Shown: positions 35,511 to 38,059 of the stretch, piece after piece | Layout of the letters: every line of letters begins with the position of its first letter | Position numbering within the stretch: position 1 is the stretch's first letter | NCBI GenBank assembly: GCA_030538085.1 | Contig: JAUNUR010000012.1 | Span: 1 to 60,528 of the forward strand | Source: Pseudomonadota bacterium | Lineage (GTDB): Bacteria; Pseudomonadota; Gammaproteobacteria; Burkholderiales; Burkholderiaceae_C | DNA length: 60,528 nt | Direction of reading: 5' to 3' | Translations under genes and position numbers: made by a program | Notes under the pieces: model-generated | What the model was told of the DNA's origin: nothing | What the model saw: the letters and a program-made list of their open reading frames with translations, nothing else | Databases searched by the model: none

Positions 35511-36227
35511 ATGTCGACCTTGAGGCTTGGCGCCTACAAACTCCCCGCGGCCGAGGTGGTGCTGGTGCAGACGCTGTTCCGTCTGTACGCCCACGGCGAT
35601 GCTTTTCGCTGGACCTTCGTCACCTCCCCGCCCTACGACGCGCTGCTGGTGGACGGCACCACCGAGGAAGGCCTGAGCAGCGCCGTCGACGGCATGGCCA
35701 AGGCCGTGCTTCGCCTGACGCGCATGAACGCGGGCGATGCACCCAACACGCTGGGGCGGCCCATCCGCGCCGACCGGCTGCAAGCCTGGCTGAAGTTGGT
35801 CGAAGCCGACCTGCTGGACACACGCGCCACCACACCACTCGACGAAGCGACCGAGCTTGGTCCGGCCACTGGCGATCCGGCGAACATGGCTGAGACGGCC
35901 ATCAATCCCTTGCGTTTCAAGCTGCGCCGCTGGCCGCCCGCCGCCCTGCTGCGCGCCGACCCGAACCGTATCCGCATGGCCACGCTGCTCTCGCGCCGGC
36001 CCTTGAACGCCGCCGAGCTGGCCACCATCAGCCAGCAGCCGCTGCAGGAGTGCCAGGCTTTCCTGAACACGCTGCAAACCACCGGCCTGGTCGACATCCA
36101 GCGCGATGAACCGGCGGCCACACCGGCCGCTGGCCCCCCCGCCAAGGCGTCGGCCACACCCGCCGCGCCCGCACCCGCGTTCGCGCGCGGCCTCATCTCC
36201 GGCATCCGTCGCCGTCTCGGCCTCTGA
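35511..36227 (+). CDS. Protein of unknown function with C-terminal winged-helix-like segment
   Basis: A 238-residue cytoplasmic protein that opens the GTPase/roadblock cluster. I do not recognise the N-terminal domain (about 1-95); it contains the strand-like DALLVDG. Residues about 150-195 (MATLLSRRPLNAAELATIS and the following CQAFLNTLQTTGLVDI) read like a winged helix of the kind seen in GTPase-linked proteins. An Ala/Pro-rich linker leads to a basic tail (GLISGIRRRLGL), possibly membrane- or partner-binding. It may be an adaptor or regulator for the GTPase 21 bases downstream; that is inference from position only. Confidence 0.6.
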   Translation: MSTLRLGAYKLPAAEVVLVQTLFRLYAHGDAFRWTFVTSPPYDALLVDGTTEEGLSSAVDGMAKAVLRLTRMNAGDAPNTLGRPIRADRLQAWLKLVEADLLDTRATTPLDEATELGPATGDPANMAETAINPLRFKLRRWPPAALLRADPNRIRMATLLSRRPLNAAELATISQQPLQECQAFLNTLQTTGLVDIQRDEPAATPAAGPPAKASATPAAPAPAFARGLISGIRRRLGL

Positions 36228-36248
36228 TGCCGCCGCCCTGTTGCCACC

Positions 36249-36785
36249 ATGAACGAATACAAGATCCTCTTCACCGGCACCATGGGTGCGGGCAAGACCA
36301 CCGCCATCGGCGCCGTGAGCGAAACCCCGCCCATCGTCACCGACGTCGTCAACAACGACCAGTCTCACACCAAGGAGCGCACCACGGTCGGGCTGGACTT
36401 CGGCCAGTTCACGCTGGACAACGGCGACCGCATCCGCATGTTCGGCACGCCCGGCCAGTCGCGCTTCGACTTCCTGTGGAAGATCCTGTCCAAGAACGCG
36501 CTGGGCATGATCATCCTCACCGACAATTCGCGCCCCGATCCGCTGGCCGACCTGCGCGTGTATCTGGAAGGCTTCGCCGACGACCTGGACATCATGCCCT
36601 GCGCCATCGGCATCGGCCGCCTGGGCGAGCACCCCTCGCCGTCGATGGACGACTACATCGACGAGCTGGCCCGCCACAACCGCGTGCTGCCGGTGCTGGA
36701 AGTCGACGTGCGCAAGCGCGACGACGTCATCCTGTTGATCGATACCCTGCTGGCCCAACTCGAGGCCGGCATGTTTGGAGAATGA
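36249..36785 (+). CDS. Ras-like small GTPase (MglA/CvnD-like)
   Basis: A 178-residue single-domain P-loop protein. G1 is GTMGAGKTT at about residues 10-18, a candidate G2 threonine lies in KERTTVGLDFG (about 45-52), and G3 is GTPGQSRF. The G4 NKxD motif that sets guanine specificity is not evident: the equivalent strand reads CAIGIGRLGEH. Small GTPases beside roadblock proteins are known as polarity or signalling switches (MglA/MglB, actinobacterial conservons). The stop codon overlaps a possible ATG of the next gene, but the better start for that gene is six bases on. Confidence 0.85.
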   Translation: MNEYKILFTGTMGAGKTTAIGAVSETPPIVTDVVNNDQSHTKERTTVGLDFGQFTLDNGDRIRMFGTPGQSRFDFLWKILSKNALGMIILTDNSRPDPLADLRVYLEGFADDLDIMPCAIGIGRLGEHPSPSMDDYIDELARHNRVLPVLEVDVRKRDDVILLIDTLLAQLEAGMFGE

Positions 36786-36787
36786 GC

Positions 36788-37180
36788 ATGTCCGTGAAAC
36801 TGAAACTGTCGCCGACCGCCAAGGTCATCGCCGGCCGCGAGGCACAGGCTTTTCTTGATGAGGTCAATGGCGTCACCGCCGTCGTCATCGCCACCATCGA
36901 CGGCTTCGACGTGGCCTCGGCCATGCGCTCGGGCGATGCCGCCCGCATCGCCGCCATGGCCAGTTCCATTTCCGCCATCAGCTCGGTGGTGTCGCAAGAG
37001 GCCGGCCTGGGCCGCAACAAGAGCGTGACCATCGACACCGAATCCGGCTTCGCCATGGTGTACAGCGTGCACCGCGACGATGCGGAACTGGTCATCAACA
37101 TCATCGCCGATGGCAGTGCTATCCTCGGTCAGGTGGCCTACCGGCTTGCCCAGTTCGCCCGCATCCTGACCGAAGCATGA
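36788..37180 (+). CDS. Roadblock/LC7-like protein 1
   Basis: A 130-residue protein with the roadblock/LC7 pattern: GREAQAFLDEVNGVTAVVIA, then TIDGFDVASAM, a helical AARIAAMASSISAIS segment, and strands around KSVTIDTESGFAMVYSV. Such proteins dimerise and act as GTPase-activating or scaffold partners of small GTPases. GGAG at 36777-36780 is seven bases from this ATG, which decides the start against the overlapping ATG at 36782. Its stop overlaps the next start as ATGA. Confidence 0.82.
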   Translation: MSVKLKLSPTAKVIAGREAQAFLDEVNGVTAVVIATIDGFDVASAMRSGDAARIAAMASSISAISSVVSQEAGLGRNKSVTIDTESGFAMVYSVHRDDAELVINIIADGSAILGQVAYRLAQFARILTEA

Positions 37181-37542
37181 AACAGAAAGCACTGCGCGAC
37201 GCGATTGACACCATGGCGGCCATGCCTGGCCTGGAAGGCTGTGCGTTGGTCGAAATCGAGGCCGGCATGGTATGGCACCACGCCGGCCAGATTGAGGGCG
37301 TGCAGACCTTCGCCGAGGCGGCCAGCGACTACTGGCGCCTGTACAACCGGCTGTCGCACCAGTTCCAGGATCTGGGCGACCTGAAGGCATCGGTGATGAT
37401 GCACGCGCAGGGCCGCATCACGCTGCTGCCCTGCGGCACCGGCATGCTGCTGGTGACGCTGACACGGCAGAAGTCGGACATCGACTGGACGCTGTGGCAG
37501 GAAAAAACCAAGGAACTGGCCCAGTTGGTGAACCAGCTGTAG
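37177..37542 (+). CDS. Roadblock-like protein 2
   Basis: A 121-residue protein coupled by ATGA overlap to the preceding gene. The order of strands and helices (MAAMPGLEGCALVEIEAGMV, ASVMMHAQGRITLLPCGTGM, LLVTLTRQKSDIDW) matches a diverged roadblock fold. Function is inferred from the fold and neighbours: a partner subunit for the small GTPase. A terminator follows. Confidence 0.65.
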   Translation: MKQKALRDAIDTMAAMPGLEGCALVEIEAGMVWHHAGQIEGVQTFAEAASDYWRLYNRLSHQFQDLGDLKASVMMHAQGRITLLPCGTGMLLVTLTRQKSDIDWTLWQEKTKELAQLVNQL

Positions 37543-37563
37543 GCTTTCCTGGCTCCATTCATG

Positions 37564-37599
37564 AAAAGGCCGCGTTGTTGTGCGTGTCGCGGTCTTTTT
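37564..37599 (+). terminator. Rho-independent terminator inside the cluster
   Basis: GGCCGCG pairs with CGCGGTC around a 13-base loop, with AAAA before and TTTTT after. It would separate the first four genes from the last roadblock gene, unless read-through occurs. Confidence 0.65.
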
Positions 37600-37646
37600 C
37601 ATCCCCACCGACACGCTGATCGCATGAATTTCCCGGAGAACAAGAG

Positions 37647-38006
37647 ATGGCGACCATCAAGCAAACCCTTGACGAACTGATGACCCTGGACGGCGCCATG
37701 TGCGCGGCCGTGGTCGACTCCTCCAGCGGCATGATGCTGGGCTCGGTCGGCTCCGGTGTCGACCTGGAAGTGGCCGCCGCCGGCAACACCGAGGTGATCC
37801 GCTCCAAGATGAAGACCATGCGCTCGCTGGGCCTGAACGACGTGATCGAGGACATCCTGATCACCCTGGGCAAGCAGTACCACATCCTGCGCCCCTCGGC
37901 CCGCAAGGACGGCGTGTTCATCTACTACGTGCTGGACCACGCCCGCGCCAACCTGGCCATGGCCCGCCGCAAGGTGCAGGACGTGGACAAGGAACTGAAC
38001 TTCTGA
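37647..38006 (+). CDS. Roadblock/LC7-like protein 3
   Basis: A 119-residue roadblock-type protein: KQTLDELMTLDGAMCAAVVD, SSSGMMLGSVGSGVDLEVAA, a helix with NTEVIRSKMKTM, and strands around QYHILRPSARKDGVFIYYVL. A CGGAGAA ribosome-binding site lies 10-15 bases upstream. It has its own terminator, so it may be expressed at a different level from the other module members. Confidence 0.8.
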   Translation: MATIKQTLDELMTLDGAMCAAVVDSSSGMMLGSVGSGVDLEVAAAGNTEVIRSKMKTMRSLGLNDVIEDILITLGKQYHILRPSARKDGVFIYYVLDHARANLAMARRKVQDVDKELNF

Positions 38007-38032: not shown

Positions 38033-38059
38033 AAAAGCCCCGGCATGCCGGGGCTTTTT
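38033..38059 (+). terminator. Rho-independent terminator
   Basis: GCCCCGG and CCGGGGC enclose CATG, flanked by AAAA and TTTTT. Strong and bidirectional. Confidence 0.9.

Follow-up and report, generated by a model that had tools for sequence, protein, structure and literature searches.

The Group 3 systems among the MglA-type GTPases are found almost only in the beta- and gamma-Proteobacteria and, in the sections that the survey of Wuichet & Sogaard-Andersen (2014; PMC4316618) gives to them, bring together a GTPase, one or two MglB proteins, and a protein whose N-terminus is receiver-like and whose C-terminus is a winged helix. The same sections give Groups 2 and 3 a threonine in place of the arginine finger, a GTPGQ motif, a degenerate G4 motif and a D-x-R motif, and suggest transcription control for Group 3. 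Here we describe a five-gene operon (g1 to g5) in contig JAUNUR010000012.1 of a Pseudomonadota bacterium placed in Burkholderiaceae_C (assembly GCA_030538085.1), the window being the whole 60,528-nucleotide stretch analysed. On its predicted structure, the fifth gene, g5, encodes a newly recognised roadblock component, whereas the rest of the operon is of an already-known kind.

The Group 3 MglA family is known and little studied: our literature searches, in which the term "roadblock lc7" misses the printed slash form, found phenotype data on a Group 3 system in one paper only, and nothing useful on Xanthomonas, Neisseria and Acinetobacter systems beyond PMC4316618 and PMC11112851. The latter, in its account of the mgl genes, reports one mglA and three mglB in Snodgrassella, assigns the MglA to Group 3, and describes a substitution in the orphan mglB-3 that accompanied altered spreading on 0.5% agar and altered colonisation, ascribed to type IV pili (Meng et al., 2024). 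The Snodgrassella set resembles the operon in its one mglA and its several mglB, and its Group 3 assignment is the one that we consider probable for g2. A further likeness, that of a GTPase with a roadblock protein as GTPase-activating protein (GAP) and accessory regulators, is offered by Myxococcus, where, as two papers report, MglC binds MglB, RomY boosts MglB, and MglC has a roadblock fold and is less than 9% identical to MglB (PMC7949163, PMC9481161). That system differs in its other gene set and in its Group 1 GTPase with an intrinsic arginine finger; neither this finger nor TVPGQ, the Group 1 polarity hallmarks, is found in g2. The actinobacterial conservons (CvnA-D) likewise have a roadblock protein, CvnB, whose member CvnB5 g3 matches, as neighbour of a Group 2 GTPase that shows similar G3 and G5 peculiarities, but where they have a histidine kinase the operon has g1. 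As initially annotated, the five genes include no histidine kinase: none of the CvnA kind was found in them by family search, and none was recognised in the flanking open reading frames (ORFs), these being judged by recognition only.

A conserved unit of probable Group 3 type

Five consecutive plus-strand ORFs occupy positions 35511-38006 (Table 1). In 32 named loci retrieved with g2, among them Ottowia, Variovorax, Ramlibacter, Lampropedia, Polaromonas, Rhodoferax, Massilia and a Lysobacterales metagenome-assembled genome, tblastn of the five proteins finds g1, g2 and g3 in 32/32, g4 in 21/32 and g5 in 27/32, with g1-g3 in the same order throughout. The set lies far beyond chance: these are real genes and a conserved unit, and the module of consecutive genes proposed in the initial annotation does stay together. 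One of the five loci lacking g5 (L034) stops about 300 bases past g4; in the other four, g5 was not found in the available stretch. The most conserved protein is g5, with a mean column identity of 85% (28 rows) against 76% for g2 (32), 68% for g3 (32), 65% for g4 (22) and 38% for g1 (33). Two sequences were left out of the g2 and g3 alignments as broken frames, which could reflect decay or sequencing error: the GTPase of Ottowia beijingensis (L047:10001-10533, broken near codon 129) and g3 of Ottowia sp. oral taxon 894 (L043:10555-10940).

The initial annotation also held that the architecture differs from the known kinds. We reject this, as the set fits the Group 3 MglA systems: a receiver-like and winged helix-turn-helix (wHTH) protein of the g1 type neighbours a GTPase with GTPGQ and D-x-R motifs (given for Group 2 also), g3 and g4 stand as coupled MglB homologues with Asp-Gly in g3, and the host falls in the beta/gamma-Proteobacteria (PMC4316618, sections on Group 3); Snodgrassella is moreover already on record with one mglA and three mglB (PMC11112851, account of the mgl genes). 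What the operon adds is a third linked roadblock-fold gene, g5; proteins of its type may or may not be among the 749 MglB homologues of PMC4316618.

As first proposed, g2 is a single-domain Ras-like GTPase, matching TIGR00231 (E 5.7e-5, below cut-off) and, by profile, the Ras-related SEC4 (9.5e-8); an NCBIfam search of the five proteins gave nothing useful beyond this weak TIGR00231 match and weak helix-turn-helix matches. It has two threonines where the arginine finger would sit, and its G4 motif is degenerate. Among 80 GTPase relatives T45 is kept in 79, T46 in 79, T67 in 62, P68 in 80, G69 in 80, Q70 in 79, D153 in 79 and R155 in 79. A tree of these relatives holds both g2, whose nearest named relative is that of Ottowia beijingensis, and the GTPase of genome G337, which we take to be a Snodgrassella and whose GTPase coordinates fit the mglA of that genus. 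Labels for g4 on this set were left unused because their model matches g5 too. The GTPase is patchy in near relatives, matching in 20/60 genomes, some of them only through a second clade 36-39% identical to g2 that several of the genus's genomes contain; in one same-genus genome (G027:C73, loci L018 and L026) two related GTPase genes lie within 3 kb on one contig.

The N-terminus of g1 is predicted, from alignment and predicted elements, to have the receiver-like fold that Group 3 systems feature. The winged-helix-like segment noticed at the outset is borne out by predicted elements, a Pfam TrmB match (E 1.4e-4, below cut-off) and a profile match to SmtB (E 4.1e-5). The g1 profile aligns end to end (hhalign 99%, E 2.5e-18) with proteins of 245-382 aa encoded by the opening genes of 14 other GTPase operons, and about half of these proteins show by eye a receiver-like N-terminus (PDLVLVD, KP). 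An AlphaFold2 model (mean predicted local distance difference test, pLDDT, 79.8; predicted template-modelling score, pTM, 0.46) has a receiver-like arrangement, the winged helix, a tail helix and disordered linkers. Sequence and model of g1 fit what is called the "protein of unknown function" in Group 3 systems. In the receiver-like domain, the Lys-Pro pair has become Arg-Pro (R83-P84), the phospho-acceptor position D48 is not conserved by eye, and one relative matches Response_reg at no better than E 0.091. That the tail is a membrane helix we rejected as unproven: its amphipathicity is mostly no higher than that of shuffles, and although in the window, as in some relatives, no other part of g1 has so high a moment, the share of shuffles that equal it is 3-86% (6.8% in the window).

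The three roadblock proteins of the initial annotation are recognisable as such, g3 and g4 by sequence and g5 by structure prediction. The g3 protein matches Robl_LC7 (E 8.1e-9), is the sole match to that family in its whole own genome, and in profile comparison matches CvnB5 (3leq) at 2.2e-8; its D38-G39 is invariant in 32/32 rows. The g4 protein is more divergent, at E 0.0014 (below cut-off), although 17/22 members of its alignment match Robl_LC7, the best at 2.5e-6, and its profile weakly matches LAMTOR2 and a roadblock chain of bacterial or archaeal origin (0.035-0.05). In the window the Asp of Asp-Gly is replaced by Ala in g4 and by Ser in g5, as judged by eye on the alignments. In a Neisseriaceae-like genome, a minus-strand gene between the GTPase and a g3-type gene (L121:6239-6874) seems by eye to encode a roadblock domain preceded by a winged-helix segment.

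A predicted roadblock family outside Robl_LC7

No member of the g5 alignment (0/28) matches Robl_LC7 at E 1, and 10/28 weakly match LAMTOR5, a roadblock-type protein, the best at 0.0075. Among wider relatives 7/28 match Robl_LC7 weakly (best E 0.0068); among eight plasmid relatives none does, and the sole roadblock-type match is one LAMTOR5 at 0.11. One 123 aa relative (L147) is matched by the g5 model at 3.7e-33 and by that of g4 at 5.6e-5. The AlphaFold2 model of g5 (pLDDT 92.9, pTM 0.86) has helices at residues 4-11, 40-60 and 103-116 and strands at 17-24, 30-35, 70-73, 77-83 and 90-97, the alpha-beta-beta-alpha-beta-beta-beta-alpha order of the roadblock fold, and the best 50 Foldseek matches to it in the PDB are MglB, MglC, Streptomyces, Asgard and Ragulator (or p14) roadblock chains (E 6.6e-7 to 6.4e-6). 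Their template-modelling (TM) scores by query length run from 0.74 to 0.84, apart from MglC at 0.63, most MglB chains lying at 0.80-0.83 and two at 0.74-0.75. The roadblock fold first suspected for the third protein is thereby upheld as a prediction.

Relatives of g5 reach well beyond this operon. Of the 250 genomes surveyed within the order, 28 are matched by the GTPase model, 12 by the g5 model and 10 by both (p 3e-9, kinship not corrected); among 299 genomes of the phylum the counts are 37, 36 and 30, where 4.5 shared genomes are expected (p 1e-28, kinship likewise not corrected), some g5 matches in these surveys being weak. Strong g5 matches (E < 1e-38) occur in 23 phylum genomes, 18 of them with the GTPase, and in 15 of these 18 both genes lie within 3.5 kb; 6 of the 36 g5-positive phylum genomes have no GTPase match. 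In a family that we take to be Neisseriaceae, g5-type genes occur in 33/72 genomes, often several per genome. Plasmid relatives come from 27 records, including Streptomyces, Deinococcus, Hymenobacter and Acinetobacter, and g5 relatives reach Actinomycetota and Deinococcota; among the 20 matches listed with their annotation, it reads "hypothetical protein" or is missing. The Acinetobacter wuhouensis conjugative plasmid p1_010062 holds the GTPase match and a roadblock gene together with a hypothetical gene and g5, in a group that spans the record start, and because a conjugative Acinetobacter plasmid (L169, NZ_CP033119.1) carries such a module, GTPase/roadblock/g5 modules can travel.

The window's own genome has g2 as the sole match of the GTPase model and carries a second g5 (G000:C77:18069-18425, or L111:6070-6429), identical at 417/425 bases from start codon through terminator and different upstream, which by its sequence appears to be a recent duplication or conversion. 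Elsewhere g5 is part of longer proteins: a 534 aa plus-strand frame (L116:5503-7107) combines a BLUF domain (8.6e-19) with an unknown stretch and, at its C-terminus, a g5-type domain, and L115 and L118 are long frames with a g5 part and no named domain. Because an ATG precedes the g5 part in all three, free g5 may be made too, or instead; L116 also has a ribosome-site-like AAGGGAG. Two further long proteins, L123:6504-7880 (minus strand) and L124:5106-6386 (plus strand), have a divergent g5-like C-terminus and belong to one genome, G281, in which the GTPase model finds no match.

A natural question is whether g5 is the orphan mglB-3 of Snodgrassella. We rejected this identity, since the solitary Robl_LC7 gene of G337 sits near 0.936 Mb and the two g5-type genes are separate from it, at 0.427 and 2.527 Mb; Robl_LC7 finds two genes in G337, not three.

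Association with type IV pili

At the curated cut-off PilM is present in 28/28 genomes with the GTPase and in 160/222 others of the 250 order genomes (Fisher 3e-4), and by genus in 18/18 GTPase genera, where 91/121 genera have PilM (p 0.0037). The curated cut-off (188/250) was used because E 0.001 matches all 250 genomes, and single genomes were assigned by best E < 1e-39, which reproduces the 188. FliF shows no association, with 18/28 GTPase genomes against 151/222 others. The window's genome has a PilM match and no FliF match; the initial remark that no motility gene is present therefore stands for the neighbourhood and fails for the genome.

Proposed working and alternatives

We consider it probable, with a fair margin of doubt, that the operon is a Group 3 MglA switch with g2 as the GTPase, g1 as its partner and roadblock proteins as regulators, g3 being of the GAP type, g4 and g5 tuning it, and the pilus its target. 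The GTPase/roadblock switch of the initial annotation, with g1 as the likely link to input or output, is thus retained. In the working that we infer, binding partners, GAP activity, DNA binding and target alike, g3 would most likely be the GAP-type subunit, keeping as it does the Asp-Gly of the MglB proteins that serve Group 2-5 GTPases. Lacking that Asp, g4 and g5 are most likely non-catalytic regulators whose homo- or heterodimers would tune g3 or g2, by analogy with MglC and RomY. GTP-bound g2 would recruit or release g1, probably a receptor or output whose place of action would be DNA or the membrane, and type IV pilus activity would be the favoured target. Since g5 occurs on its own too, and within longer sensor-like proteins, we regard it as the prime candidate for an input adaptor.

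Several observations weigh against this picture. The sole Pfam match of g2 above cut-off is ATP_bind_1 (PF03029, 5.6e-9); the solved structures that best match the GTPase profile are Rab-type, no MglA chain being among the best 60 of its 72 structure matches; and the tree that joins g2 to G337 was built without Group 1, 2, 4 and 5 outgroups. Profile comparison of g3 with g4 or g5 finds no similarity, the sole supported roadblock pair being g4 and g5 (80%, E 1.4e-5 over 51 columns), and MglC is a poorer fold match of g5, with a TM of 0.63. Input by phosphorelay is unlikely because the phospho-acceptor Asp of g1 is not conserved, and the PilM statistics behind the favoured target ignore kinship and could reflect shared lifestyle.

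The operon may instead be a transcription switch in which g1 is the output regulator, its DNA binding set by the GTPase, with the roadblock proteins setting GTP lifetime and the pili incidental; the winged helix of g1 and the transcription control suggested in the Group 3 sections of PMC4316618 speak for it, while winged helices bind proteins too and the C-terminal tail of g1 is conserved beyond the wHTH, so that we hold it to be a serious contender at somewhat less than an even chance. That the three roadblock proteins are interchangeable, alternative mixed dimers selecting GTPase states in the manner of the switch first proposed, is rather unlikely: all three are roadblock proteins by sequence or predicted fold, but because g4 is missing in 11/32 loci, where g3 is in all 32, and Asp-Gly is found only in g3, they look like proteins with distinct roles.

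It is improbable, too, that g5 is an independent roadblock protein that adjoins the GTPase by happenstance. It does follow a gap of 73-213 bases, has a second, unlinked copy in the window's genome and lies unlinked in other genomes, lacks a GTPase match in the 6/36 genomes counted above, and, in the plasmid regions of Streptomyces, Deinococcus and Tsukamurella that were examined, adjoins no annotated GTPase, one of these regions having a roadblock gene nearby. Against this stand its co-occurrence with the GTPase in 30/36 genomes, the 15/18 close pairs, and its linkage to the GTPase on the Acinetobacter conjugative plasmid as well.

Layout of the operon and its surroundings

Four-base ATGA overlaps join g2 to g3 (36782-36785) and g3 to g4 (37177-37180), the latter as initially described; orthologues favour a g3 start at 36788. 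In the window 104 bases separate g4 from g5. The evidence for the terminator said to isolate the last gene is weak: a laxer search finds a hairpin with T-run in 6/28 g4-g5 stretches, the window among them, and a standard scan finds no plus-strand terminator there. With a presence of 6/28 we reject a conserved g4/g5 terminator.

The operon diverges from an upstream minus-strand ORF that we take to be dnaE, and is followed by what are presumably XpaC-like, VWA and TelA-like genes, recognised without family search. These neighbours were rejected as partners, dnaE being nearby in just 12/32 loci and the three downstream genes in 0/32, in flanks of up to 10 kb and shorter in some loci.

Table 1. 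Positions in the window of the five genes, their main parts and the hairpins near g5
Feature	Position	Strand	Basis
g1, 238 aa: receiver-like N-domain, linker, winged helix, linker, C-terminal helix	35511..36227	+	ORF, hhalign, AlphaFold2
g1 putative receiver-like domain, residues 4-106	35520..35828	+	Alignment, predicted elements
g1 winged helix, residues 134-198	35910..36104	+	Pfam, profile, predicted elements
g1 conserved C-terminal tail helix, residues 224-236	36180..36218	+	Alignment; model confidence low to middling there
g2, small GTPase of 178 aa, Ras-like and probably of MglA Group 3 type	36249..36785	+	Pfam, TIGR00231, profile, 80-relative set
g2 G1/P-loop GTMGAGKTT	36276..36302	+	Alignments
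g2 G3 motif GTPGQ	36444..36458	+	Alignments
g2 G5 motif D-x-R	36705..36713	+	D and R each in 79/80 GTPases
g3, roadblock/LC7 protein, invariant Asp-Gly; probable MglB-type GAP subunit	36788..37180	+	Pfam, alignment, profile
g4, divergent roadblock protein without Asp of Asp-Gly	37177..37542	+	Pfam, alignment, profile
Hairpin then T-run between g4 and g5; possible attenuator	37568..37594	+	Laxer search
g5, third roadblock-fold protein (119 aa), of a family outside Pfam Robl_LC7	37647..38006	+	Alignment, family searches, AlphaFold2, Foldseek
Terminator-like hairpin after g5	38037..38054	+	Common to the genome's second g5 copy; absent from the standard scan's list

Implications

We tentatively suggest, as a possibility still on the doubtful side, that g5 founds a widespread unannotated roadblock family of exchangeable input subunits, free, duplicated or built into sensors such as the BLUF protein, by which different signals would reach one GTPase. 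If g5 is a core subunit, roadblock surveys with Pfam miss a component of these switches, and sensor-like g5 proteins would give a direct handle on the signals sensed. How prokaryotic Ras-like switches receive signals without a kinase or a known guanine-nucleotide exchange factor would thereby become a testable question.

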